Shown here: positions 607 to 29,255 of the stretch, in pieces | Layout of the letters: every line of letters starts with the position of its first letter | Numbering within the stretch: the first letter of the stretch is position 1 | Assembly: GCF_002197845.1 (NCBI RefSeq) | Contig: NZ_NIDE01000014.1 | Location: 124,001-188,000, forward strand | Direction of reading: 5' to 3' | Source of the DNA: Fimbriiglobus ruber | GTDB lineage: Bacteria > Planctomycetota > Planctomycetia > Gemmatales > Gemmataceae | Length of the DNA stretch: 64,000 nt | The notes under the pieces: generated by a model | Database searches by the model: none | What the model saw: the letters and a program-made list of their open reading frames with translations, nothing else | What the model was told of the DNA's origin: nothing | Made by a program: the position numbers and the translations under genes

Positions 607-1334
607 TCGAGAACGGCCAACCCGGGGGCGGTTACCTCCTGCGGTACGGCGGACTGGCGATCCCGTTCCGGGTCGAGTACCGCGATCGAAAGGATCTGGC
701 CATCAGCGTCTACCCGGAGCTGCGGCTGGAGGTGTTGGCCCCCCGGCGTGTGAGCGTCGAGCAGGTCCTCACCCGGGTGCAGAAGCGGGCCGGGTGGATC
801 GTGCGTCAGTGGCGGAAGTTCGAGCGGTACCGCCCGCCCCAGCCGGAGCGGCGGTACGTGAGCGGGGAGACGCACCGCTACCTCGGCCGCCAGTACCGGC
901 TGAAGGTCCAGGGAGGGACGCCGTCCGGGGTGAAGCTGATCGGCCGGTTCCTGCAAGTCCGGACCACGGGCGAGGCGGACGGCGACGAAGTGCGGAACCT
1001 GCTCGAAGCCTGGTATCGGCAGCACTCCGAGCGGGTGTTCGCCCAGCGGCTCCTGCACTGCCTCGAAGCGGTGCGGTCGCTCCGCCTGGCCCAGAGTCCG
1101 ACCCTGACCGTCCGCAAGATGGCGAAGCGGTGGGGGAGTTGCACCAAGGCCGGGGCGATCCGGCTGAACGTGGAGCTGGTGAAGGCCCCGGTCCCCTGCA
1201 TCGACTACGTGATCGTTCACGAGCTGTGCCACCTCAAGGCCCACAACCACGGCCCGGAGTTCTACCGTCTCCTTGGTCGCTGCATGCCCGACTGGGAGGC
1301 CAGGAAAGAACGTTTGGAAGCCGTTACCGTTTAG
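603..1334 (+). CDS. YgjP/WLM-type zinc metallopeptidase (M48-like)
   Basis: A 243-residue protein of the YgjP (DUF45) family. The catalytic zinc site is seen as HELCH at residues 206-210, followed by the family hallmark HNHGPEFYRLL with a further His ligand. Upstream, KMAKRWGSCTKAG is the conserved strand before the zinc helix. Such peptidases are often encoded directly beside type I hsdR genes, and here the GTG start overlaps the hsdR stop, so it is made together with HsdR. The substrate is unknown; control or turnover of the restriction complex is inference. A start at 570 is possible but lacks a ribosome site. Confidence 0.87.
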   Translation: MIENGQPGGGYLLRYGGLAIPFRVEYRDRKDLAISVYPELRLEVLAPRRVSVEQVLTRVQKRAGWIVRQWRKFERYRPPQPERRYVSGETHRYLGRQYRLKVQGGTPSGVKLIGRFLQVRTTGEADGDEVRNLLEAWYRQHSERVFAQRLLHCLEAVRSLRLAQSPTLTVRKMAKRWGSCTKAGAIRLNVELVKAPVPCIDYVIVHELCHLKAHNHGPEFYRLLGRCMPDWEARKERLEAVTV

Positions 1335-1407
1335 GCTGCTGAGCGGCGATCCAGCGACTGCCGCAGGGGACTTACACGGCCGGCGTGGGGCGGCCCGAGG
1401 AGTACAC

Positions 1408-3324
1408 ATGAAGAACGACTACCGGGTGCAGATCAACTTCTTGCCTGTAGACGGGCCGCTCCCGCCGTTTCGCGTGTACCGCAAGCCGTGCACCGGTAGC
1501 GAAGCCCGCCCCTCGACCGACGTGGCAGCCTACTCCCTCCCCGTCAGCAGCGAAATGGAGGAGCGTCAGTTTTATTGGGTCCGGTTCACCCCCGCTGAGG
1601 GCTACCACGAACACCATATCCACGCGTCGGACAACAACAACCTCACCAAGTGGGCGATTCTGCACGCAATCCAGACTGCTGTTCATGCGAAGTTGAAACC
1701 TTCGGAGTACCACATCCCTGCCAAGGGTTTTGTCGATTCAATTCGGCTGCTCATGGTGGAGCACCCTGAGGGATTCGAGCAACTGGAGGTTCAGCCCTAC
1801 TTCCTGCGTGAAACCCAGCAGTTCGGGTGTCTGGCAGACTTCCACTTCAAGGTGAAGGGGGGCGTCGCCTTCTCCCGACGGATCCAGCAACTGAGCTTGA
1901 GCTTGAACCGGGCAGGGAAGCGGAACGTCGACTACTACCTCGACCGCGACGGGAAGATTCGGACGTTCACGACCGCGAGGCGGGATGTGCTGTCTGGGCT
2001 GTTGCTGCCAGGAAGCACGACACCCATCAGTCTCGGCAGAGAGTTCGTTTCGTTGCCTGCCCGGACCCTCGGGGCGAAGACGTACGTTTTCGCGGGTGGG
2101 AAAACGTCCCGAAGTCAGTTCTCAGGTCTGCGAGACCACGGGCCGCTGGAACCCCTGTCGGCTGCCCCACATCTTCTCTTCCTGTTCCGCGAGCAGGATC
2201 GCCAAGCGGCCCGAATACTGGCGGCAGCTCTCAAAGGGACGAAGGGAAAGGAGCGGTTCAACTTCCCGGGTTTCCAAGCCCTCTTCAAGTCCGATCTGAG
2301 TTACGACGCGAAGCCGATCATCCTGTCCGATCTGAACAAGCCGTCGATGGAACTTGCCGTGCAAGAGGTCCAGCGACGGCGGCTCACGACCCCGAACGCC
2401 CTTCCGGTCCTCGTGCTCCCGCAGGGCGATGATAACGGCTACCTGGCTCACAAGGCGGGGTTCGCGAACGTCGGGATCGCAACCCAGGTGTGCACCCTGC
2501 CGGTCATTCAAGACGAGGCCGCGTTGAAGTGGGCGATCGGGAACATCGCTTTGCAGATCTTTTGCAAGGCGGGCGGGCAGCCGTGGAAGGTGCGGCCGAC
2601 CACGGAGCCGACCCTCATCGTCGGGATCAGCCAATCGCACCGGCTGAAAGCAGTCGGCGATGACCGGGTGGTGGAGAAGTACTTCGCTTTCACGGTGATG
2701 ACGGACAACAGCGGGCTGTTCCAGAAAATCCAGGTCTTGGGTGACGCCACGCAGCACGAGGACTATCGACGCCAGCTGACGACCAACCTCGAGGCCCTGC
2801 TCGGTGAGGCTTCGTCGCAGTTCAAGAGAGTGGTAGTCCACACCTCGTTCAAGCTCAAGAGGAAAGAAATCGACGCCATCGAGCAGTCGGTCCGTCGTGC
2901 GGCGGGAGCCAACAAGGCGTGTCGGTTCGCGGTGGTGAAGGTGAACCAGCACTCGCGGTTTTTCGGGGTGAACCGCGGCGTGAACAGTCTGGTGCCCAAC
3001 GAGGCGACGTGCGTCCGCCTCGGCCAAGGCGAGTACCTCGTGTGGTTCGAGGGCATCAACCCGGACAAGCCGACCGTGGGTAAGCTGTTCCCTGGGCCGA
3101 CACACTTGGACTTCTTACGGGTGCCCGATGGTCAGGGCATACGCGACGACGAGTTGCTCCAGGACATCATCAATCTTTCGGGGGCCAACTGGCGGGGGCT
3201 GAACGCCAAGAACTCTCCGGTCTCGGTGTTCTACTGCCACCTCGTTGCCGACATGGTTCACGACTTCCACGCCGAGAACCTGCCGCTGCCGCAGGTCGAG
3301 GTCATCCGGCCTTGGTTTCTGTGA
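1408..3324 (+). CDS. Long prokaryotic Argonaute, catalytically inactive (long-B type)
   Basis: A 638-residue protein with the length of a long pAgo, not of a ~450-500 residue short one. The MID domain shows the 5'-phosphate guide pocket Y345, K349 and Q360 in YLAHKAGFANVGIATQ. The PIWI domain begins near residue 402 (LIVGISQSHR) and closes with LLQDIINLSGANWRG (about 583-597) and HLVADMVHDF. The first catalytic Asp of the DEDX tetrad is Ser408, and the second is replaced in VVVHTSF (Thr479/Ser480), so target cleavage should be lost. Inactive long-B Argonautes use a guide to sense invader nucleic acid and pass the signal to a partner effector; the partner here is the next gene. Start: ATG 1408 with GAGGAGT six bases upstream. 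An in-frame extension to 1273 overlaps the YgjP gene and is rejected. Confidence 0.88.
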   Translation: MKNDYRVQINFLPVDGPLPPFRVYRKPCTGSEARPSTDVAAYSLPVSSEMEERQFYWVRFTPAEGYHEHHIHASDNNNLTKWAILHAIQTAVHAKLKPSEYHIPAKGFVDSIRLLMVEHPEGFEQLEVQPYFLRETQQFGCLADFHFKVKGGVAFSRRIQQLSLSLNRAGKRNVDYYLDRDGKIRTFTTARRDVLSGLLLPGSTTPISLGREFVSLPARTLGAKTYVFAGGKTSRSQFSGLRDHGPLEPLSAAPHLLFLFREQDRQAARILAAALKGTKGKERFNFPGFQALFKSDLSYDAKPIILSDLNKPSMELAVQEVQRRRLTTPNALPVLVLPQGDDNGYLAHKAGFANVGIATQVCTLPVIQDEAALKWAIGNIALQIFCKAGGQPWKVRPTTEPTLIVGISQSHRLKAVGDDRVVEKYFAFTVMTDNSGLFQKIQVLGDATQHEDYRRQLTTNLEALLGEASSQFKRVVVHTSFKLKRKEIDAIEQSVRRAAGANKACRFAVVKVNQHSRFFGVNRGVNSLVPNEATCVRLGQGEYLVWFEGINPDKPTVGKLFPGPTHLDFLRVPDGQGIRDDELLQDIINLSGANWRGLNAKNSPVSVFYCHLVADMVHDFHAENLPLPQVEVIRPWFL

Positions 3325-3332
3325 GGTCATCA

Positions 3333-4421
3333 ATGAGTGCACGTTCGACGGATGTCATGCTCCTGCTCGGAGCCGGGGCCAGCGTGGACGCGGGCATACC
3401 CGCGTCCGCGACGATGATCAAGGACCTCGAAAGCCTGCTGCATAACGGTGGCGAGTGGGGGGAGCATCTGCAGCTGTACCGGCACGTGAAGAGTGCGATC
3501 CACTACGCCGCCGGGCTCAAGGGAGTCTATGGCTGGGACGTGCCGTTCAACATCGAGACCCTCGTCAACACCCTGTACGAGTTGGAGCGGAACGAAGAGC
3601 ATCCGCTGTACCCGTTCATCGGCTCGTGGAACTCTCGCTTTGTCGCCCTCGCCGGCTCGAAATTCGAGCACATTCGCAGGTTCCGGTCCCTCATCTTGAA
3701 GCAGCTCAAGCGGTGGATGTGCCCCGACAGTCCTTCGCGGGGCGACTATTACAAGGGGCTGGTCAACCTGCAGCGTGAGTTGAACTACCCGCTCCGCATC
3801 TTCACTCTGAACTACGACCGCTGTGTCGAGCGGATCGAGCGTGACGGGTTCCGGGTGGAAGCGGGCTTCGGCGGGAACGGGGCGGATCATTTCTGGGACT
3901 GGGAGCGGTTCGAGCAGCACGACGCGGATTCGAGCACCCCTCCACAGGCCTACCTCTACAAGATTCACGGTTCGATGGACTGGAAGCGGGACCAGGACAA
4001 CAACCTGTTCCGCGTCGAGCAGACGGAATCCGTCGAGCACGAGCGGATGGAGATCATTTTCGGCCGGGATTTTAAGCTGGAGGCAGCCGACCCCTACCTC
4101 TTCTACGCGTACGAGTTTCGTCGCTACTGCTTGCTCGCCAAGCTGATCGTGGTGATTGGCTACAGCTTCAGCGATGGGCACATCAACAAGATGCTCGTCC
4201 AAGCTCTACGCAACGATAAGGACTGCCAGTTGTTCGTGGTCATTCGTTGCGAATTCAAGAAAGAGATCGACTCGAAGCGTGAAGAAATCGCCGAGAAACT
4301 GGACGTGTCTGTCGATCGCATCGGTGCGTACCACGGTTCGGCGAGAGATTTTCTCAGCTCGAGTGAGCTTGGAAATTGCGTTCGCTCCCGCGTCCCCGAA
4401 CCCAGCGATGGGCCTTTCTGA
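3333..4421 (+). CDS. SIR2-domain effector paired with the Argonaute
   Basis: A 362-residue SIR2-like protein. NAD-binding and catalytic signatures are seen in order: LLLGAGASVDAGIP (residues 11-23), TLNYD (158-162), KIHGSMDW with His212, and VIGYSFSDGHIN (274-285). Proteins of this class in defence systems usually hydrolyse NAD+ and cause abortive infection. It starts 8 bases after the Argonaute stop, with GAGG just upstream, so the pair forms an operon: the inactive Argonaute as guide-loaded sensor, SIR2 as toxic effector. No APAZ domain is recognised, in line with a long Argonaute partner. The activity is inferred from family, not shown. Confidence 0.88.
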   Translation: MSARSTDVMLLLGAGASVDAGIPASATMIKDLESLLHNGGEWGEHLQLYRHVKSAIHYAAGLKGVYGWDVPFNIETLVNTLYELERNEEHPLYPFIGSWNSRFVALAGSKFEHIRRFRSLILKQLKRWMCPDSPSRGDYYKGLVNLQRELNYPLRIFTLNYDRCVERIERDGFRVEAGFGGNGADHFWDWERFEQHDADSSTPPQAYLYKIHGSMDWKRDQDNNLFRVEQTESVEHERMEIIFGRDFKLEAADPYLFYAYEFRRYCLLAKLIVVIGYSFSDGHINKMLVQALRNDKDCQLFVVIRCEFKKEIDSKREEIAEKLDVSVDRIGAYHGSARDFLSSSELGNCVRSRVPEPSDGPF

Positions 4422-6565: not shown

Positions 6566-6823
6566 TCAACTCGCGGAGACTTGAAGGGAAGCCTGATTGA
6601 CTATATGGTCTGATGCGTCGCTTTGCGTGGTACGGAGGGGGTAGGGTTGGGCCTCGGCCAGGAGGCGGATGACGTAATCGCGGAGGGTCATCCGGGATAG
6701 GTTGGCGTTGTGTCTTGTGCGGCACCAGACGTCGTACGGGACCGCCTTGACGTGCAGGGCGTGGGACGCCAGCACGTCGGTGGTCGTGTTCGGAACTGGG
6801 GCGTCCAGGGTATCGGTGGGCAT
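6566..6823 (-). CDS. Small putative ribbon-helix-helix protein
   Basis: 85 residues. The segment VKAVPYDVWCRTRHNANLS followed by MTLRDYVIRLL fits the beta-helix-helix layout of plasmid-type ribbon-helix-helix proteins (short strand ending in VP, helix, Met-Thr-Leu-Arg turn, helix). These act as autorepressors, antitoxins or partition proteins. No toxin-like partner is next to it, and the candidate iteron array lies 300 bases upstream, so a replication or partition regulator is the better guess. Start ATG 6823 is chosen over the longer frame because AGGAGA lies 7 bases upstream. Confidence 0.5.
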   Translation of the reverse strand: MPTDTLDAPVPNTTTDVLASHALHVKAVPYDVWCRTRHNANLSRMTLRDYVIRLLAEAQPYPLRTTQSDASDHIVNQASLQVSAS

Positions 6824-7127
6824 CAGTGTCTCCTGATTGATTCGGTGATCCGGTGAGGGTATCCACCAGGATCGGTACTCCAGGGCGAGGTCAAGAACCC
6901 GCCGGGCCGAAGGCCGTGGCAGGTCGGGTTCGGGATCACGTCGGCCACTCACCCATGCAACCTCCATCGGAGTTAGCCAGGGCGGGTGTCACGGTCGGGG
7001 TGGGACAAGACCTGTCGAGGGCCGCCGGTTGCACCGACGGGCCTGAACGGGTCTAGTCCTCCTGACATGGTGAGTCAGTTCCCGTCATGGTCGTGTCCGT
7101 CGGACCGGACTGGTCGAGTCTTCTGTG

Positions 7128-7175
7128 TAGTCATGTGATTAGTCATGTGGTTAGTCATGTGATTAGTTATGTGCG
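7128..7175. repeat. Four tandem 12-bp repeats (iteron-like)
   Basis: Units start at 7128, 7140, 7152 and 7164 with consensus TAGTCATGTGAT; the third equals the first and the others differ at one to three positions. They directly border the AT-rich stretch 7176-7330. This layout is that of an iteron origin or a multi-site operator. Confidence 0.6.
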
Positions 7176-7330
7176 TGGCTAGTTTTCCAGTTCTCGTTTC
7201 TCTTAAATTGTTTTAGATTAGTTGTCACTATCTCGTTTCACTTGTCACATATCTGGTTTAGAAAAAGGAAGAAGTAGATGGTCTGCTGATAAAAAATCTT
7301 CTGCTACTAGTGTTAGAATGGACACCGGAA
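7176..7330. other. AT-rich stretch beside the iterons, candidate unwinding region
   Basis: Marked fall in GC relative to the ~60-65% surroundings, with runs such as TCTTAAATTGTTTTAGATTAG and GATAAAAAATC. It holds no open frame. Together with the tandem repeats it would suit a DNA-unwinding element. The gap 6824-7127 left of the repeats shows nothing else. Confidence 0.4.
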
Positions 7331-7380
7331 TGGAACCCAGTGTGACCGCCTGCCGGCGGTGTGGTCGGTAGAGCGTCGAC

Positions 7381-7797
7381 TCAGCACGCGTTCGCTTCGG
7401 TCGCGGCTTCCTTGAGCCGCTTCATGTTGACAGGTTGCCCGGACAGGAGCAGGTATCCGCTGGTCACGAGCATCCGATCGCCGGGTGCGGATTCCCGCAA
7501 CTGGAACTGCCGAATCCGGTTCCGGCCGACAACCTTCTTGAGTTGCTTCATCCAGAGGGTGCAGGCTCGGTAAGTCTGTCGAAGGAACACCGCCTCGGGC
7601 ACCTTACCGGGGGCGAAAAGGCTGAACATCGGGTTGAGGTAGCGGTGGTCTGTGCCCCAAGGCGGCAAAGCACAAAATCGGCTGTAAGTCAAGGCAGCGA
7701 ACTCTCCAAGGTGCGGCCCAAGGTTGGGCCAATCGATGTGATGCCGGGTGATTGTCACCGGCCCGATGGTGTAGATCCGGTTTCCAGTGCCGGACAT
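7381..7797 (-). CDS. Hypothetical protein beside the iteron region
   Basis: 138 residues, basic, no family recognised. Seen: HHIDWPNLGPHLGEFAALTY, a basic helix WMKQLKKVVGRNRIRQF near residue 80, and GYLLLSGQPVNMKRLKEA at the C-terminus. ATG 7797 with GGAGG directly upstream is preferred over the 44-residue longer frame. It is the closest gene to the iteron/AT-rich stretch; a replication-initiation or origin-binding role is only a guess from position. Confidence 0.55.
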   Translation of the reverse strand: MSGTGNRIYTIGPVTITRHHIDWPNLGPHLGEFAALTYSRFCALPPWGTDHRYLNPMFSLFAPGKVPEAVFLRQTYRACTLWMKQLKKVVGRNRIRQFQLRESAPGDRMLVTSGYLLLSGQPVNMKRLKEAATEANAC

Positions 7798-7960: not shown

Positions 7961-8851
7961 TCACACCTCCCAGCGGTAGGACTCGACGAACGCCAGGGTA
8001 AGCGGAACGCCGAGGAAACGTGCGGCCCGCAGCGGACGCAGTGCCTGCCCCGGGATGTGTCCCGCCCGCTCGATGATCAGGTCCAGGACGGCATCGTCGG
8101 GGGCCAGTCCCCGCCGTACCACTTCACCAGAGAGCCAGCGGCGGAAGTCCGGTGGGGCCGGGGCGGTGGTCCTGACGATCGATGTGAACCGGTACACGAA
8201 GTCCTTGCTGAGTCCCGGGAACCGGGCCCCCGTCACCGGGTCCTTCCGACCGCCGAGTCGGACGCCGCTGGCGATGATCGTCATGGGTGTCTCGGTCATC
8301 GGTTTGATGAGCCGGGGCATGAACTTGAGGAACTCCGGGTGGGACACCTCGTCGATGTACAGCACCAGGGGGCACCCGCGGTCCCGGTAGCGGCACGCGA
8401 GTTCCTCGTCGATCGTCGACGGGTTGGTCCCGTCGATCCACGAGTACTTGAAGTCGTGCCCCTCTCGGTTGCGGAAGAACCCGATCCGGTTCCAGCCCCC
8501 ACTCTCCCAGGTCCGGCAGCTCTTGCACCGGTTGCACGGGTCGAGGTCGTCTCGACGTTCCCGGCAGAACTTGGCCTTGAGGGCAGTGTGGACGCTGAAC
8601 GTCTTTCCGGAGCGGTTCGGGCCGTACACGAGCACGTGCGTCTGGGGCTCCCGGTACGTGACGAAGGCCTTCAGGACGCGGACGAGTTCCGCGTTCCCAG
8701 TGATCCGGGACCAGGAGTCGGCCGTATCCCCGGCTGGCGTCACAGGAACGGTGTCCGTGTTCGCCGGGCCGGTCCCACCAGTGGAGACCGGTTGCTCGTC
8801 GTCCTCCAGGTCGAACAGTTTGAACACGTCGTCGGGTGTGTTATCTGCCAT
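7961..8851 (-). CDS. AAA+ ATPase, clamp-loader-like with zinc knuckle
   Basis: 296 residues. Walker A GPNRSGKT at 77-84, a Cys cluster (C106-x2-C109-x2-C112, possibly C96) right after it, and Walker B VLYIDEVS with D167-E168. The zinc knuckle inserted between Walker A and B is the layout of DnaX/clamp-loader subunits, but the protein is short and its sensor 2 region (GHIPGQALRPLRAARF) is only loosely alike. An acidic disordered N-terminus of ~45 residues precedes the ATPase. It lies between two unknown genes in the run beside the candidate origin, so DNA replication or transposition-type ATPase are the likely roles. Start ATG 8851 fits the domain; no strong ribosome site is seen. Confidence 0.65.
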   Translation of the reverse strand: MADNTPDDVFKLFDLEDDEQPVSTGGTGPANTDTVPVTPAGDTADSWSRITGNAELVRVLKAFVTYREPQTHVLVYGPNRSGKTFSVHTALKAKFCRERRDDLDPCNRCKSCRTWESGGWNRIGFFRNREGHDFKYSWIDGTNPSTIDEELACRYRDRGCPLVLYIDEVSHPEFLKFMPRLIKPMTETPMTIIASGVRLGGRKDPVTGARFPGLSKDFVYRFTSIVRTTAPAPPDFRRWLSGEVVRRGLAPDDAVLDLIIERAGHIPGQALRPLRAARFLGVPLTLAFVESYRWEV

Positions 8852-8928: not shown

Positions 8929-9804
8929 TCACACCGCCGGGGTGGAGACGACCGGGTCAGTTGCGATGCAGTTATCGTCAGTAGCTTGCAACCCCTTGCC
9001 GCCGTTCATGTTGTCGCCTGACGATAGGGCTGACGCTGACGGTACTGGACCGTCAGGCCGGACCAGGACGGTGGGGTCGGGACAGAACACATCATCACGG
9101 CGGACGAGGGTGGTCCAGGAACCTGTATCCCGGTGCGTGACCGTCACTTCGAGCCCGACCTTGCGGAATTGGTAGCCGAGGTCGTCGAGACGGCGGGAGA
9201 AGTAGTTGAGGGCCTTGCACAAGGTGCCCTTGTCCGCCCGGACCTGGGCTTCGATGTCGGACGAGTTCACCACCGCCCAGAGGTCGGCGGTCCGCAACTT
9301 GAGCGTGAGCGTCGCCCCGTCTGACTCCACAGTGAGGGTGTGGCGGAGTCGGTCATCGGTGGTCAGTCGGGCGACAGCGTCGAGCAGCCGGTTCCCGAGG
9401 CCGGGGGCCGCACCCGAGCGGGTCAGTGAGTTGGCGAAAACGCAGACGGCCTCGAAGTTGTAGTCGCCGTCCTTCTTGACCACTGCCGCCGTTCGCTCGC
9501 GGCCGCCCTGGTACGCGTCCTCAGCGATGTAGTCGACCGCGAGGGCGAGGTCCTTGTCCGACAGGTGCAGCGTCGGGCGATGGTACCGGTACAGGTTCCG
9601 GAGATAGCTGCGGGCCCGCAGGCTGACCTTCCCGTCCCGGTCGTACAGCCGGTACAGCTGCCGGTTCGGGTCCTTCGCCAGGCGGATGCACGGCTGATCC
9701 TCGCTGTCGAGGCACTTGTCGGTCCGGTCCTCATTGACCTTGCCGAGGAGGAAGTTCACCGGGTCCAGATCCTCGGGGGTCGTGTTGATGATGCTCGCGT
9801 TCAT
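8929..9804 (-). CDS. Hypothetical protein of the replication-like module
   Basis: 291 residues, soluble, no recognised domain. Features: CLDSEDQPCIRLAKD near residue 30, a basic patch SLRARSYLRNLYRYHRP, two long helical stretches, and GTLCKALNYFSRRLDDLGYQF near residue 200, which could be a winged-helix recognition segment. Start ATG 9804 has GGAGAT five bases upstream. It lies just upstream of the AAA+ gene with a 77-base gap, so the two may be co-transcribed. A primase-like or origin-binding partner is conceivable but not shown. Confidence 0.55.
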   Translation of the reverse strand: MNASIINTTPEDLDPVNFLLGKVNEDRTDKCLDSEDQPCIRLAKDPNRQLYRLYDRDGKVSLRARSYLRNLYRYHRPTLHLSDKDLALAVDYIAEDAYQGGRERTAAVVKKDGDYNFEAVCVFANSLTRSGAAPGLGNRLLDAVARLTTDDRLRHTLTVESDGATLTLKLRTADLWAVVNSSDIEAQVRADKGTLCKALNYFSRRLDDLGYQFRKVGLEVTVTHRDTGSWTTLVRRDDVFCPDPTVLVRPDGPVPSASALSSGDNMNGGKGLQATDDNCIATDPVVSTPAV

Positions 9805-9890: not shown

Positions 9891-10178
9891 TTACAGCCCG
9901 AGTGCGGCCAGTTCCCGCTCGACCTGGTTGCGGTCCGCAGGCATCGGTTTGGGAACAGGTCGCGGGTTATCGGTGCGGGTCTGGCGGTCGAAGAACCGCT
10001 GTAGGGCTTCGACCGAGGTGCAGAGTTGTCCACCCACACGGATGGTTTCGAGCCCCCTTGCCGCCCAGCGGTAGAAGGTGCTCACGTGGGGCTTTCGGCC
10101 GTGGCGTCGACGGGGGCACAGGTCTCTGGCCGCCTCCCGGAAGCTCACGACCCGTTCTTTCGCGATGTCGATCGGCAT
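9891..10178 (-). CDS. DUF1580 helix-turn-helix protein
   Basis: 95 residues. The N-terminal 60 residues (FREAARDLCPRRRHGRKPHVS, then FYRWAARGLETIRVGGQLCT) match DUF1580, a family I know mainly from planctomycetes that resembles excisionase/MerR-type DNA-binding domains. Such proteins are common on planctomycete mobile elements, where excision or copy control is plausible. Start ATG 10178 has AGGGGTG upstream; the longer frame runs through a short tandem repeat and is rejected. Confidence 0.75.
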   Translation of the reverse strand: MPIDIAKERVVSFREAARDLCPRRRHGRKPHVSTFYRWAARGLETIRVGGQLCTSVEALQRFFDRQTRTDNPRPVPKPMPADRNQVERELAALGL

Positions 10179-11044: not shown

Positions 11045-11632
11045 CTAATGCGACGCCCGGACGCTCTTCAGGCGGTGTCTGAGTTCCGCGACCGCTGTGA
11101 CGGATCCAGACGCGGGCCAAGTGTCCGGGTACTCGGCGAGGACGACCTTCTCCAGTGTCGCCGTCACCGCGATCCCGCGGTCGTCCCGGCCCAGTCCTAT
11201 CAAGGTACCCTCAGTGGCACCCCACGCGAGAGTCACATGCGGCCGGTAACCGCTCCCGGCGTGAGCGGCGGACGTCTCGTCCCGTATCACCACCGTGCCA
11301 AATGCGTTCATCAATAACCCATGCAGTCGCTGCATCACGGCGGTACCGGGACCGTCGGGTTCGACCGATAGCCAGAGCAGGTCCGGCTCGCGGAAGGCAG
11401 GGCCGCAAAGCAAAAACTCGCCTGTATGTTCGCCATCGAGGTCAAGCTCATTCAAGACATCCCCGACGGGCTCCGGTTCAGCCCAGAACCGACCGCGTAG
11501 TGTGACGTGGACTGGGAAACGGAGAGCGAGATCGTTCCCGGTGAGAGCGGCCAGCTGTTGCTGGAGTGGTCGCACGACCCGAGCGGTCGATGCGTCGAGG
11601 AGCCCGAAAACAGCGTAGCGGCGGGGTGGCAT
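11045..11632 (-). CDS. 2H phosphoesterase (LigT/2'-5' RNA ligase-like)
   Basis: 195 residues with the two HxT signatures of the 2H superfamily: FPVHVTLRG (H42, T44) and GYRPHVTLAWG (H132, T134), each ending a strand. Family members open 2',3'-cyclic phosphates or cleave 2'-5' bonds, including cyclic oligonucleotide signals. ATG 11632 follows the nucleotidyltransferase stop after only 2 bases, so expression is tightly coupled. A 112-codon upstream extension of the frame runs through the neighbouring gene and is not used. The substrate is unknown; RNA-end repair and nucleotide-signal turnover are both possible. Confidence 0.85.
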   Translation of the reverse strand: MPPRRYAVFGLLDASTARVVRPLQQQLAALTGNDLALRFPVHVTLRGRFWAEPEPVGDVLNELDLDGEHTGEFLLCGPAFREPDLLWLSVEPDGPGTAVMQRLHGLLMNAFGTVVIRDETSAAHAGSGYRPHVTLAWGATEGTLIGLGRDDRGIAVTATLEKVVLAEYPDTWPASGSVTAVAELRHRLKSVRASH

Positions 11633-11634
11633 GG

Positions 11635-12687
11635 TCAGTAGATGAGGTACTCGAAGAAGCGGCTGGACCACGTTCCGCCCCGGGCCAGTGTAAACCGGAG
11701 TAGCTCGGCGACAAACCCGTCGGAGTTGTCTTTCAACGCCTTGTAGGACGGGATCTCGTACCGCTTCTCGTAAGAGTTGGGTTCCGCCTTGTTGAGGGCA
11801 GTTCGCACCTCGGACTTGCTGATCTCGGACAGAAAGGTTTCGTAAAATCCGAGCAGTTTCGCCACATCCTCGCCGTTGGATGTATATGTCCAGGCGATCC
11901 GTTCGAGCGGCGTCATTCTCAACCGCCGTCGGAGCCATGCCACCTTGTCGGTTGTTTCCAGGCTGCACTGCCCGAGCAGGAGCAGGAGGCCGCCGTACAT
12001 CGCCAGTCGGCTATGCCGCAACTTCGTGTTCCGCAGTGGCCACTTCATGTGCTCGGTGCGGAAGTCCCACTGATAGTTCACGCACAGCGACCGGAAGTAC
12101 CGGATCAGGTCGTTGAGCAGGAACACCCACTCCTTGGTGGGTTTCCTGTCTACGTAACCTTCGGCATAACTGTTGACGACTCCCGTGATGAGTTTCTCGT
12201 ACTCATCGTCGTTGTACACTGGCTGGGTTTCCAGCAGCAGGAGCAGACGCTTCGCCAGCACCCGCAGGTCTTCGTCCGGAGCCCCAACGTTCCGCTTGTC
12301 GCAGAGGTGCTGCTCGGACGTCGGAGACGAGAACGTCCCGGTTGCCTTGGGCAGTTCCAGGTCCAGCGGCTCGAGTGCGGCCCATACTCGTGCGTATGCG
12401 TCGTTGGCAATGGCCGGGTTCTGTCTGGCCGCGTCAGTAAGAACGACCAGCAGGTCGCAGTCAGAGGCATCCCCGTATTCCATCCGACCCAGTGATCCTG
12501 CAACGGCCAGCGTGCGAACCGCACGAGGGAGCCCCGCCTTGCCGAGTTGTTCGCGAATTTGCCCAATGCGGACGCGGGACTTGGTCCAGTTCCCGACGAG
12601 TGTGGGGCAGGCCGGGAGGTTAATTCCCGGTACACCCCAGTCACGGTCGGCGGCAAATTGTTCCGGGAAAGGGATGGGCACCGACAT
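11635..12687 (-). CDS. Nucleotidyltransferase (Pol-beta superfamily)
   Basis: 350 residues. The nucleotidyltransferase signature is seen as G64-S65 followed by D76-x-D78 in AGSLGRMEYGDASDCDLL, the GS...DxD metal-binding site of the Pol-beta superfamily. The remaining 270 residues are helical and could form the substrate domain, in a layout close to DUF294-type putative nucleotidyltransferases. Coupled by 2 bases to the 2H gene and 50 bases after the histidine phosphatase gene. It could add nucleotides to RNA, to a protein, or make a nucleotide messenger; the sequence does not decide this. No signal peptide or membrane segment. Confidence 0.8.
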   Translation of the reverse strand: MSVPIPFPEQFAADRDWGVPGINLPACPTLVGNWTKSRVRIGQIREQLGKAGLPRAVRTLAVAGSLGRMEYGDASDCDLLVVLTDAARQNPAIANDAYARVWAALEPLDLELPKATGTFSSPTSEQHLCDKRNVGAPDEDLRVLAKRLLLLLETQPVYNDDEYEKLITGVVNSYAEGYVDRKPTKEWVFLLNDLIRYFRSLCVNYQWDFRTEHMKWPLRNTKLRHSRLAMYGGLLLLLGQCSLETTDKVAWLRRRLRMTPLERIAWTYTSNGEDVAKLLGFYETFLSEISKSEVRTALNKAEPNSYEKRYEIPSYKALKDNSDGFVAELLRFTLARGGTWSSRFFEYLIY

Positions 12688-12737
12688 GAACGGGCCTCTG
12701 GGGCAGCACGGGAGGTCTGCCTTTCACTTTACGGTCA

Positions 12738-13451
12738 CTACGCTGACTTGGCTGCGATGCTTGCGAGAAAGGCCGGGAACGCGAGACGGTGCCAGCGTAC
12801 CCGGAACACTTCCGTGTTCTTGAAGCTGCGGGCGAGAACCTGGGAAGGATCGCGGAGCTCCTCGAAGATCCCCGCCATGATTCGCATGGGGCCCATGTGT
12901 CCGCAAATCAAGACCGCGGTGGCGTCGGTCCGCCGGATGAACCGGATGAGGTCAATGAGGAAGCTGAGCAACCGCCGCGACACTTCGGCATAGCTATCGC
13001 CTCCGGCCGGGGCGTAGTCGAAGTCACCGCGGGCGAACTCCTCAATTGGACGAACGGGCGTCATCTCCAATTCGCCTAGCGAACGCTCGTTAATCCTGGC
13101 ATCCGGGTACACGGCACCGACCCCGACTTGTCCGGCTTCCATCGCGAGCTGGAGGGTTTCGGCGGAACGGCTGAGCCGGGAATGGATGGCCAGATCGTAC
13201 CGCGGATCGAGACGGCGACCGACTGCTCGGGCTTGCTCACGTCCGAGAGCAGTCAACGGGCTGTCCTGGACACCGGTCACCAGTGAGCGTGCGTTCGCCT
13301 CGGTCTCACCGTGCCGGACCATGTGCAGTTCGACCGGGAAGGGGAGTTCGATCGGCCGGTTCAGCAGGTTGCCGATCTCCTCCCACGAGTACACCACTCC
13401 GGAGAACTCGGGGGCGGATCGGACAGTTCGTTCCGCGAATAAGCCCGGCAT
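12738..13451 (-). CDS. Histidine phosphatase (phosphoglycerate mutase-like)
   Basis: 237 residues. The branch-1 histidine phosphatase signature ELHMVRHGETEAN carries the phospho-accepting H47 after R46; a second Arg is in SRLSRSAETL (92-95), the acid residue near E122 and the second His at H185 in LICGHMGPMR. About 40 extra residues precede the domain. Start ATG 13451 is chosen because GGAGAGG is just upstream. First gene of a four-gene minus-strand operon, so it probably acts on the product or substrate of the nucleotidyltransferase and 2H enzymes, for example removing a terminal phosphate. Confidence 0.85.
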   Translation of the reverse strand: MPGLFAERTVRSAPEFSGVVYSWEEIGNLLNRPIELPFPVELHMVRHGETEANARSLVTGVQDSPLTALGREQARAVGRRLDPRYDLAIHSRLSRSAETLQLAMEAGQVGVGAVYPDARINERSLGELEMTPVRPIEEFARGDFDYAPAGGDSYAEVSRRLLSFLIDLIRFIRRTDATAVLICGHMGPMRIMAGIFEELRDPSQVLARSFKNTEVFRVRWHRLAFPAFLASIAAKSA

Positions 13452-13671
13452 GCCTCTCCTCGATTGCGGCTGGTTCGTCCATCGTTCCGGATAAGATCGG
13501 CAGTTCCTGATCGTCAGCGTTGCCTCCAACTCGTCATTCACGAGAGGGGAACTGACAGTTGCGACGGCCATGCCGATCATGCGGCCTCAAAAGTGGACGG
13601 GGCCTCTCCTCGCCCACAAGCCAGTTCAAGACTCGGACCAGGTCAGGGGCCCTGTGTCGCCTGCTTGCATC

Positions 13672-14034: not shown

Positions 14035-14138
14035 TCGGTCGCACTCCGCCGCACGACCTTGAAGTGCTGGACCTGGAAGTGTAAGGTGCTTTTACACATT
14101 GCGGTTTCGAGCCGAATCGACGAAACGGTGAGGGAGTG

Positions 14139-14182
14139 CTTCGGGACCAAGAGGTCGCAGGTTCAAATCCTGTCAGCCCGAC
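14139..14182 (+). other. 3' fragment of tRNA-Pro(CGG), candidate att site
   Basis: From the anticodon loop TTCGGGA onward the sequence follows tRNA-Pro: CCAAG of the stem, variable loop, T-arm GCAGG-TTCAAAT-CCTGT that pairs (one G-U), and acceptor 3' strand ending AGCCCGA. The 5' half is absent: upstream DNA does not pair with the anticodon stem or the acceptor. A break inside the anticodon loop beside a tyrosine integrase is the usual mark of tRNA-site integration. No intact tRNA-Pro is seen in the window. Confidence 0.72.
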
Positions 14183-14245
14183 TTGAAGTAGAATGCCTTA
14201 AACTCCGTTGCCGAAGCAGTTTCTGCTTACCCCGGCCTGGGATCG

Positions 14246-14308
14246 GGTGCGGATTCCTCACTGCGTTCTGTGGAATTGTTCCACAGAACGCAGTGAGGAA
14301 TCCGCACC
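14246..14308. repeat. Perfect 30-bp inverted repeat touching the integrase start
   Basis: Arms 14246-14275 and 14279-14308 are exact complements with a 3-base loop. The right arm ends one base before the GTG start of the integrase, so in RNA the leader would fold into a very stable hairpin right up to the start codon. No T-run follows, so it is not a classical terminator for plus-strand transcription. It could control integrase translation or be a recombinase-binding dyad. Confidence 0.85.
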
Positions 14309-15613
14309 GTGCCTCCTTTTCGTAAACCAACTCCGTCTTATCTCCTTCACAAGCAGTCCGGGCGTGGTCGTGCCGTTTGGTACGATGTCGCAGGAATTCG
14401 CCAACAGAAACTTCTTCCCGGCCCCTACAACTCGCCCGAGTCGCGCACCGCATTCGCTCGGTTGCAACTGGAGCTGGAGTCCTCCTCCGCCCCAGCCTTG
14501 CCCGATCGCGACGGTGTCACGATTGCGGAACTCCTTTGTGCCTATCTCGACCACGCTGAGCGGCATTATCGGGGTCCCGACGGCGTCCCGACGAGTGAGA
14601 TCTACGAGGTGCGTGTCGTAATTCGGGCGTTACGAGAGTTGTACGCCGACACACCTGCAGCCGAGTTCGGCCCCTTGGCGCTAAAAGCCGCACGTCAGAA
14701 GTGGGTCAAGGACGGGCGGAGTCGGACGGAGTGCAACCGTCGCGCGGGCCTGATCAAGCGTATTTTCAAATGGGCGGCTTCGGAGGAACTGGTTTCCTCA
14801 ACCGTTTACCATTCCCTCGTCACGATTACGGGTCTACAGAAGGGGCGGACGCTGGCCCCAGAGACGAATCCTGTCTGCCCGGTCGATGACGCCGTGGTCG
14901 ACGCGACACTACCTTTTCTAAACCGCTACGTCCGCGGCTTGGTCGAATTCCAACGATTGACTGGCTGCCGGCCGGGAGAGGCCTGTGCCGTCCGCCGCTG
15001 CGACATCGATATGAGTGGCTCAGTCTGGCTGTACCGGCCAACTCGACACAAGAACGCGTGGCGCGGAAAGCCCCGCACCATTGCGATCGGGCCGCGGGCG
15101 CAAGAAGTACTGAAGCCGTTCTTCACCCCGAATCCCGACGATTACTTGTTCAGTCCTCGGCGGGCGGTTGAGGAGCAACTCGCGGATCGGACAGCCCAGC
15201 GGAAAACCCCTCGTTACCCGTCCCACATGAGGCGGAACGCGGAGAAGCGGGCGGCAAAACCGAAACGCTTACTCGCCGAGACGTACGACCGGGGGAGCTA
15301 CGGACTGGCCATCGATCGCGCGAGCGAGCGGGCCTTCCCACCCCCAGCCCCCCTGTCACAATGCGATGGGGAAACGCGGGCGGCGTGGTGGAATCGGTTG
15401 TCGTCACAGCAACGCGACGAGGTAAAATCTTGGTGGAAAGAGCACCGCTGGCATCCCAATCAACTCCGACACGCGTTTGCCACGATTGTCCGCAAGCAGC
15501 ACGGTTTGGAGGCCGCACAAGTGCTTCTCGGACACACTCGGGCGGACGTAACGCAGGTGTACGCCGAGCGAAATGAACAACTGGCCGCAACGGTCGCGGC
15601 AATGATAGGATAG
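14309..15613 (+). CDS. Tyrosine recombinase / integrase
   Basis: 434 residues. Catalytic residues: R221 in LTGCRPGEACA, R387 in HPNQLRHAFAT, H409 in VLLGHTRAD and the nucleophile Y418 in TQVYAERN. The first His of the HxxR box is Asn, a variant I associate with planctomycete integrases. The N-terminus (KPTPSYLLHKQSGRG..YDVAGIRQQKLL) is the short beta arm-binding domain of this group. GTG 14309 directly follows the 30-bp palindrome, with no recognisable ribosome site, suggesting tight control. It lies 126 bases from the tRNA-Pro fragment and is transcribed away from it; it presumably inserted an island at that tRNA. Confidence 0.93.
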   Translation: MPPFRKPTPSYLLHKQSGRGRAVWYDVAGIRQQKLLPGPYNSPESRTAFARLQLELESSSAPALPDRDGVTIAELLCAYLDHAERHYRGPDGVPTSEIYEVRVVIRALRELYADTPAAEFGPLALKAARQKWVKDGRSRTECNRRAGLIKRIFKWAASEELVSSTVYHSLVTITGLQKGRTLAPETNPVCPVDDAVVDATLPFLNRYVRGLVEFQRLTGCRPGEACAVRRCDIDMSGSVWLYRPTRHKNAWRGKPRTIAIGPRAQEVLKPFFTPNPDDYLFSPRRAVEEQLADRTAQRKTPRYPSHMRRNAEKRAAKPKRLLAETYDRGSYGLAIDRASERAFPPPAPLSQCDGETRAAWWNRLSSQQRDEVKSWWKEHRWHPNQLRHAFATIVRKQHGLEAAQVLLGHTRADVTQVYAERNEQLAATVAAMIG

Positions 15614-27017: not shown

Positions 27018-29255
27018 ATGGAGCTAACGGTGGGGAACGAACGAGTGGCGTTCCGCCCCTGGCAGCCGACCGACGGGCAGGTCTTCCGCACTCCGTTCGC
27101 GTTCCACGCCGAAACAACCACGATTGACACGATGCGCCCGTGGGCAACCCCGGCCTACGTTCTCGGGGCCGGTTTCGACGGGAAGACAGGCCTCTTCGTC
27201 CCCCGGGACCGGCTACCGGCCTTCTGGGCCACCCATGCCGACGTGCCGATCGCTTGCCACGAAGCTCGGTTCCACCTGGCCGTGGTGGCCGCCGCCGTCC
27301 CATCTGTCGACGTATACGACCGGGTGGACCGGAACGCGGTGTACGACACGTGGCTGATGCACCGACTACTCGCCCTCGGGGCCAACGGCCACACGGCGGC
27401 CGGAGTGGGCGAGTCGACTTTGGATCGGTGTGTGGCAGAACACCTCGGGGAGACCCTCCCGAAGTCTCAGACGGACTCACAGGGTCGGGTGGTCCGCCTT
27501 TCGTTCGGCCGCTGGCTCCGCCGGCCGTCAGCCGATATCGAGCCGGTCTACCTCGATTGCCTGGCCCGGGTCACCGCCGCCACGTTTCTCCTCTTCGGCC
27601 GGCTGCGCGCCGGTCTCGAACGGCTCTTGGCCGAGTCCGGTGGGTCGTGGGGGTACGTGTCTCCCGACTGGCTCGCCGCGCAGGTCCAGCGGTGGGGGTG
27701 GCAAACCCACCACATCCAGGTCCGGGCCAGCATCGTGCTGCGCGCCGTCACGGCAAACGGACTGACGCTTGACCTGGACCGCCGTGACGAACTGACCGCC
27801 CGACTCCAGGCCGAGGCGACCCGCCTCCGCGAGGAACTCCGGCTCCACGGCTACCTGGCCGGGCAACCGGGGGCGGAAGCCGCACTCCAGTCGATTCTCC
27901 GCCGCCTCGAGCGGACGCTCCCGGGCGTCACGTTTCCGCGGACCGCGGGGGGCAAGTACGCCACCTCCCGGGAGGCCCTCGGGGAACAGGCCGCGCGGGT
28001 CCCGTTCCTGGTTACCCTGGCGTCGTATCAGGCGATCGAGAGTCTACTGGGTGGGTTCGTTAGCAGGGTGCGAAAGCGGGTCGTGCATCCGTCCTTCGAC
28101 CCGCTCGTGAGGTCCGGCCGGACCTCGTCGTTCGGCGAATTAAACGCCCAGAACCTGCCCCGGGAGCACGGCGTCCGAGCGTGCATTGTGCCAAGCCCGG
28201 GTCATGTCTTCATTTCCGCCGACTATGCGACGATCGAGATGGCCACCCTGGCCCAGGCTCTCAAAAGCCAGTTCGGTCTCGACTCCGGACTAGCCCGGGC
28301 GCTGAACACGGGGCGGGATCCGCACCGCATGGTCGCCGCCCGAATGACGGGGAAGCCGGAGAGCGAGGTGACGAACGACGAGCGGCAGCGGGCCAAGCCG
28401 ATCAACTTTGGCAAGCCGGGCGGGATGGGACTGGCCGCCGTCCGGCAGTGCGCGAAGGCGAGTTACGGCGTCGACCTGGACGACGGGGAGGCGCAGAAGC
28501 TGTCGGACGCCTGCGAGGACGAATTCCCCGAGCTGGGCGATTTTCTACGCCCCGAATCGGACGAAGGGGAGGCGGTTGCCCAGCTGTTCGGGCTGACCCC
28601 GGCGAGTCACCACGCCCACACGCGCTGTCGCCGGTTCCTCGATCACCCGGAGAACGCGAGTCGGGCCGACGACCCGCACTCTATCCTCGGGCGAATGTGC
28701 CTGAAGGTATTGAAGTCGGACTTACCCACGACCCGGGCGGGCGTCCCCTACCAGTCGACGGACGTCGACTACTTCTGGTCCCGGGTCAAAGGGGGTCTCG
28801 ACCACTTACCGGACCAGGTCCGCCAAGCCGTCCGCGACCGGCGACCGTCGCCCGCCCTCCTCCGGGCGGTGCGGGAGGCGGCGGACCGAGCCCCGGTGTT
28901 TACCGTCACCGGGCGACTGCGGGCGGGAGCCTCGTTCCCGGCCCGCAGGAATACGGTTTTCCAGGGGTTGGCCGCCGACGGGGCGAAACTCGCCCTGTGG
29001 CTCCTGTGGCGGGCCGGCTTCCGGGTGGTCAACTTCGTCCACGACGAGGTCCTGATCGAGGTCCCCGCGAGCGAAGATTTGCTGGCGAAAGCCGAGCAGA
29101 TCCGGGGGCTCATGATCGACGGCATGAGGCAGGTCGTGCCGGACATCCGGATCGCGGTCGAGTACGCGGCCTGTGACCGATGGTACAAGGGGGCCAAGGC
29201 CGTCCGGAGCCCCGACGAAAAGCGGCTCGAGTTGTGGACCCCGCCCGGGGCTTAA
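27018..29255 (+). CDS. Family A DNA polymerase with a degenerate exonuclease domain
   Basis: 745 residues, Pol I-like but not the housekeeping enzyme. Polymerase motifs: A in FISADYATIEMATL (about residue 400), B in RQRAKPINFGKPGGMG (about 460; the usual Tyr of the O-helix is Gly), C in VNFVHDEVLIEVP (about 675). In the N-terminal 3'-5' exonuclease-like part, motif I is FAFHAETTTID and motif II HEARFHLAVV: both catalytic Asp are His; motif III YDTWLMHRLL is kept. Proofreading is therefore probably lost. GGGAG six bases before ATG 27018. Such polymerases are typical of plasmids, phages and islands; one likely use is replication or repair of a mobile element. Confidence 0.88.
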   Translation: MELTVGNERVAFRPWQPTDGQVFRTPFAFHAETTTIDTMRPWATPAYVLGAGFDGKTGLFVPRDRLPAFWATHADVPIACHEARFHLAVVAAAVPSVDVYDRVDRNAVYDTWLMHRLLALGANGHTAAGVGESTLDRCVAEHLGETLPKSQTDSQGRVVRLSFGRWLRRPSADIEPVYLDCLARVTAATFLLFGRLRAGLERLLAESGGSWGYVSPDWLAAQVQRWGWQTHHIQVRASIVLRAVTANGLTLDLDRRDELTARLQAEATRLREELRLHGYLAGQPGAEAALQSILRRLERTLPGVTFPRTAGGKYATSREALGEQAARVPFLVTLASYQAIESLLGGFVSRVRKRVVHPSFDPLVRSGRTSSFGELNAQNLPREHGVRACIVPSPGHVFISADYATIEMATLAQALKSQFGLDSGLARALNTGRDPHRMVAARMTGKPESEVTNDERQRAKPINFGKPGGMGLAAVRQCAKASYGVDLDDGEAQKLSDACEDEFPELGDFLRPESDEGEAVAQLFGLTPASHHAHTRCRRFLDHPENASRADDPHSILGRMCLKVLKSDLPTTRAGVPYQSTDVDYFWSRVKGGLDHLPDQVRQAVRDRRPSPALLRAVREAADRAPVFTVTGRLRAGASFPARRNTVFQGLAADGAKLALWLLWRAGFRVVNFVHDEVLIEVPASEDLLAKAEQIRGLMIDGMRQVVPDIRIAVEYAACDRWYKGAKAVRSPDEKRLELWTPPGA

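Follow-up and report, generated by a model that had tools for sequence, protein, structure and literature searches.

A candidate replication-initiation module with a triplet-phased A-rich tract on a tRNA-integrated planctomycete island

Short tandem repeats bordering AT-rich DNA raise the question whether this locus holds the replication origin of an integrated element and, if so, which protein would act as its initiator. Little seems to have been described about how planctomycete mobile elements replicate. Within the window, i.e. the whole 64-kb stretch of DNA analysed (C14:124001–188000), TRF returned an array at 7128–7173 on the plus strand with the unit TAGTCATGTGAT (score 78, period 12, 3.8 copies, 91% match). 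The array adjoins an AT-rich stretch at 7180–7310 with a GC content of 34%, against a window mean of 65%, which ranks second-lowest in GC among the 120-bp stretches of the 64-kb window. Both features are located within a non-coding gap of 557 bp (6824–7380, minus strand) between the gene of an RHH-like protein and that of a protein termed Y, considered here as the candidate cis site. These data confirm the four 12-bp repeats bordering AT-rich DNA of a preliminary description, which had taken them for the iteron array of a plasmid-type replication and partition module. Allowing up to two mismatches, TAGTCATGTGAT matched 8 sites in the 64-kb window (shuffles: mean 1.0, maximum 4 in 100), and a two-unit pattern with up to three mismatches was found at a single site of the 12.4-Mb genome, the backwards control yielding 0.

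The island at tRNA-Pro and its relatives

The module is part of an island of 41,418 bp inserted in the 3′ end of tRNA-Pro(CGG), with a direct repeat of this tRNA 3′ end at both of its ends. The left copy consists of the last 48 bp of the intact tRNA-Pro(CGG) (C14:96739–96813), 27.2 kb before the window start, and the right attachment repeat at 14137–14184 (plus strand) is a 48-bp copy with 98% identity. A tyrosine integrase gene (int1) starts just inside the tRNA copy of the island and is frameshifted; an intact tyrosine integrase of its own was not found at an end of the 41.4-kb island. The integrated element proposed earlier is hence supported by the 48-bp tRNA-Pro repeat recurring 41.4 kb apart together with the integrase beside the tRNA copy. 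A plasmid nature found no support, as neither the AAA+ ATPase nor protein X of the window matched any of the 72,556 plasmids in PLSDB, the AAA+ protein of a relative matched neither PLSDB nor a phage collection, and the module was thus found on no extrachromosomal element in PLSDB.

Outside the right repeat lies a second, intact integrase gene (int2; 14309–15613), which is probably part of an adjacent element arranged in tandem. The far end of that element was not found, and an IS-rich stretch comes next, in which a protein resembling the family A DNA polymerases of phages or mobile elements is encoded (27018–29255). Between the attachment repeat and int2, a long inverted repeat is present at 14250–14310. 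The island cargo, as read from the translations, comprises a type I restriction system, a DUF932 protein, an SNF2-like protein and others; PADLOC identified a class II Argonaute with its SIR2 partner at 1273–4421 (pAgo_II 2.4e-217, Aga_SIR2 1.1e-131). At 11045–13580, genes for a LigT-like protein (2′-5′ RNA ligase family by reading), a nucleotidyltransferase (PADLOC candidate PDC-M70A, 3e-33) and a histidine-phosphatase-like protein follow in a row, possibly forming a defence or RNA-repair cluster.

Searching genome contigs and viral contigs with the AAA+ protein of the window matched no relative. Distant relatives were first obtained from the same family, and a profile then added 14 loci in the class, with more in two families, amounting to about two dozen distant AAA+ relatives in Planctomycetia by profile search. 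A survey by eye and with HMMs revealed a recurrent order on a single strand: HTH or DUF1580, X, AAA+, a gap with an A-rich tract, RHH and Y. The order from X to Y is kept in about a dozen loci, corresponding to about ten independent cases, since these counts include near kin (L076 and L078; L081 and L090 from one genome). The HMMs for RHH and Y also recovered these proteins in loci outside their building sets. The window departs from the usual order in having Y before the gap, likewise L083.

The modules of the relatives are accompanied by defence cargo and by integrases at tRNA or tmRNA genes, L089 being located directly after a tRNA-Arg. The IMG/VR entry G940 starts in a tmRNA gene with the integrase at that end and X and AAA+ at the other end beside an att copy, a layout equal to that of the window island; no tract follows its AAA+ gene. 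Its start at the tmRNA gene and the att repeat at both ends indicate an integrated copy, and its interpretation as a circular form was dropped. Matches in G511 and G628 turned out to be ordinary DnaX, and one AAA+ match occurs at the same coordinates in two supposed species (G352:C264 and G777:C13), pointing to a shared or contaminant contig. Overall, these islands constitute an apparently undescribed planctomycete family carrying anti-phage genes.

Proteins encoded beside the gap

The AAA+ ATPase (7961–8851, minus strand) carries a four-cysteine insert and matched DnaX structures in a profile search (1e-9), while its Pfam match to DNA_pol3_delta2 was weak and below the cut-off (5.9e-5). Among its relatives, eight of nine matched a PHROG clamp loader (down to 4e-28), and the AAA+ alignments contain the Walker motifs and zinc-binding cysteines of DnaX-like proteins. 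By these profile and motif matches the protein is clamp-loader-like. With the DnaX clamp-loader subunits it has in common, besides the profile match, the insert after Walker A; in contrast to the chromosomal DnaX of these organisms, with about 440–800 residues, the module proteins are encoded on islands and comprise about 270–300 residues. PADLOC holds no model for X or AAA+, and a defence role is therefore not supported.

Protein X (291 residues; 8929–9804, minus strand) is predicted from its alignment, the model of a relative and fold matches to consist of a D5N-like collar and a C-terminal winged helix. In the model of its relative from L079 (pLDDT 80), a winged helix accompanies a collar-like domain; an earlier model built from four sequences was poor (pLDDT 43) and set aside. 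The best viral fold match of the model was a phage DNA helicase (3.7e-6). VIA-align gave Z values of 6–7 to the D5/E5 pre-helicase (collar) domain, to PriRep1 and to the winged helices of RepE and Orc1, as well as to the Nse subunits of SMC5/6, all Z values being below 8 and thus under the safe level of the tool, so that these matches may reflect a common arrangement. Foldseek against the PDB yielded E values of 0.07 or worse, profile searches of X against the PDB gave nothing significant, and Pfam and PHROG assigned no replication initiator family to X or Y. An SF3/AAA+ helicase domain is absent from the X chain of the window and of most relatives. X is predicted to resemble the collar and winged helix of a D5 helicase without the helicase ATPase, a P-loop ATPase domain being placed between the collar-like and the winged-helix parts in the X of L085.

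Proteins not recognised as X take its position in L090 and L154 and in L155, L156 and L158, those of the first pair having replication-initiation families as best, weak matches. In L157, the gene of an NrS-1-type primase directly follows the tract (1.3e-24; PHROG primase 1.2e-77); in L030, the protein after AAA+ is primase-like by inspection only (PHROG primase E 0.25). The replication-type module with an unrecognised initiator that had been proposed is thus supported by the synteny, the clamp-loader-like matches, the wHTH partner and the primase beside one relative.

The RHH-like protein (85 residues; 6566–6823, minus strand) matched MatP_C at 0.067–0.11, under the cut-off, and was assigned by 26–42% identity to its relatives and by HMM synteny, its gene being the conserved partner downstream of the tract. 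Protein Y (138 residues; 7381–7797, minus strand) was identified by alignment and HMM synteny in L078, L081, L083, L088, L089, L155 and L158 and adjoins RHH in the relatives. A DUF1580 protein is encoded at 9891–10178 on the minus strand (Pfam about 1.5e-10 to 2.8e-10), probably an HTH protein in the position of an excisionase. DUF1580 also precedes the module in L089 and L090, whereas L027, L154 and L155 have HTH_17 at this position; no mention of DUF1580 was found in the literature searched. AAA+, DUF1580 and, below threshold, the RHH-like protein agree with the earlier description of these neighbours, whereas of the two proteins described as basic only Y is so (pI 10.1), X being acidic (pI 5.7).

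The position beside an integrase and HTH genes in L079 and L089, with an HTH gene also in L027, L154 and L155, would be in line with X and AAA+ governing excision, integration or target choice in the manner of TnsC/TniB, the AT-rich gap being a recombination accessory site, and the AAA+ fold is common to clamp-loader-like and TnsC-type ATPases. We consider this highly improbable, since the closest families of the AAA+ protein are clamp loaders and not TnsC/TniB, L157 has a primase next door, and the tract is located away from the att sites at 14137 and the tRNA.

A triplet-phased A tract in the gap

The gaps equivalent to 6824–7380 in 11 relatives hold an A-rich tract with the pattern NAN NAN NAN on the AAA+ strand, i.e. 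an A in the middle of successive triplets, together with in-phase stops. The tract runs span 15–56 triplets. Their maximal runs exceeded dinucleotide shuffles in all 12 gaps, the window included (p 0.001–0.01); when the tract alone was shuffled, this held for 10 of 12 (p ≤0.014). All runs scoring at least 11 in 442 kb of loci are on the AAA+ strand, nearly all of them between AAA+ and RHH; this specificity is only local, as whole genomes contain further NAN runs with the appearance of low-complexity genes, acidic or basic. In seven loci the gap is the site of lowest or near-lowest GC around the module. Hairpins before RHH were seen in L076, L078 and L079 and are not a general feature.

In the window, the run at 7118–7171 (minus strand; 14 of 18 triplets, with in-phase stops) coincides with the repeats, with four triplets per unit. 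It is joint-highest in the 64 kb, yet modest, and the weakest of the tracts, with p 0.01 when the gap is shuffled and p 0.078 against local shuffles. The 12-bp repeats are, as far as can be judged from sequence, a local and weaker form of the triplet-phased A tract. Accordingly, the array described at the outset is real, but the comparison with the relatives argues against classical iterons.

The residues encoded by NAN triplets are K, N, Q, E, D, H and Y, and the tract could in principle be a decayed or cryptic low-complexity gene rich in K, N, Q and E, the window repeats being an unrelated minisatellite. Low-complexity genes appear to yield NAN runs genome-wide, and a gene would also be expected to conserve its codon positions as observed between L076 and L078, where the phase is kept over 141 aligned columns and conservation is highest at the middle position (41/47), followed by the first (32/47) and third (24/47). 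However, 17 in-phase TAA or TAG triplets occur among 360 tract triplets, with stops in 10 of 12 loci, excluding the tract as a gene in most loci. L078 and L083 have no in-phase stop, and the L083 tract may fall within the RHH frame. As the place and strand of the tract moreover recur across loci, we regard a cryptic gene as very improbable.

Across the loci, tract and RHH occur together in 12, RHH alone in 1, the tract alone in 1 and neither in 8 (Fisher p 2e-4, the loci being not fully independent and sorted into classes by the author). Where an AAA+ locus has no RHH gene, the tract is mostly missing as well, and it may thus belong to RHH rather than to X and AAA+. Tandem short repeats are common binding sites of RHH proteins. 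The repeats and the A tract might therefore be an RHH binding array, serving as a partition site or as operator of the RHH gene itself, with replication, if any, starting elsewhere, and the usual position of the tract a few hundred bases ahead of the RHH frame end would fit. On the other hand, a triplet phase is not expected for RHH sites on duplex DNA, tract and RHH are separated by the primase gene in L157, and no ParA- or ParM-like gene is visible in the module. We deem such an array rather unlikely, although it is the main and a serious alternative to an origin. The partition role suggested previously finds support only in the RHH-like gene and in how this gene occurs together with the tract. 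Both readings may also hold together, the origin being controlled by RHH.

A putative origin and known replication systems

Taken together, replication initiation is the single reading that best fits a clamp-loader-like ATPase, its predicted winged-helix partner, the neighbouring primase and phased, AT-rich DNA, all on integrative elements. On these sequence grounds, we consider it more likely than not that this module initiates the replication of an integrative element, with the gap as cis site and probable origin. Against it speak the frameshift in int1, the missing plasmid matches and the weakness of the window tract. Following excision of the element, the wHTH protein X would bind element DNA and recruit or position the clamp-loader-like AAA+ protein, and the triplet-phased A tract of the gap 6824–7380 would be opened, letting in the helicase and primase of the host or, among some relatives, a primase encoded by the element itself. 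The RHH protein might bind beside the tract to regulate or to partition. More tentatively, and with rather low confidence, we propose a split initiator, in which a D5-type protein devoid of its helicase ATPase and a separate clamp-loader-like AAA+ open extended stretches of central-adenine triplets on mobile islands as a DnaA-box-independent counterpart of the DnaA-trio.

DnaA-trios have been searched as at least three NAN triplets, with the pattern (.A.){3,}, beside the DnaA box of bacterial oriC (PMC8287927). The gaps resemble this basal unwinding system by their central-adenine triplets, runs of at least three being present, but differ by runs of 15–56 triplets and by their location on a mobile element without a DnaA box; with up to one mismatch, no box was detected in 11 of 12 gaps, including the window, and none was convincing. 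Similarly, iteron plasmids (RepE/mini-F) and the lambda ori-O-P system share with the window the tandem repeats beside AT-rich DNA, four of which flank the stretch here, near a wHTH protein and an ATPase, whereas the units here have 12 bp, no Rep or O/P family was recognised for X and DnaA boxes are absent. X is predicted to resemble the D5-type primase-helicases in a D5N-like collar and a terminal winged helix, with an ATPase in between in the X of L085; in contrast to these, X lacks the ATPase in most members and a DnaX-like AAA+ is encoded beside it.

Phage-inducible chromosomal islands and SaPIs carry int, alpA, pri, rep and ori. The present islands resemble them in tRNA or tmRNA integration, the integrase and HTH excisionase-like genes, initiator-like genes of their own, repeats beside AT-rich DNA and defence cargo. 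They differ in the candidate initiator, composed of a wHTH protein and a separate clamp-loader-like AAA+, in their planctomycete hosts, and in that no phage-interference or packaging genes were recognised in a non-systematic reading of the cargo. If the proposed reading is true, planctomycetes gain a family of islands that bring along their own origin, of use for vectors, and the question arises whether DnaA-type recognition of single-strand triplets re-evolved or came borrowed with a clamp-loader-like ATPase.

The cargo of the relatives offers further observations. In L157 (11265–12875) and L088, a protein with a CARF-like part and a sigma-54 activator part, resembling RtcR, is encoded downstream of the module. 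In L095 (2230–9804), where the element is located in a tmRNA gene, X and AAA+ are followed by a Dcm-like methylase, a GHKL-like ATPase, further genes and a Vsr-like endonuclease, as judged by reading.
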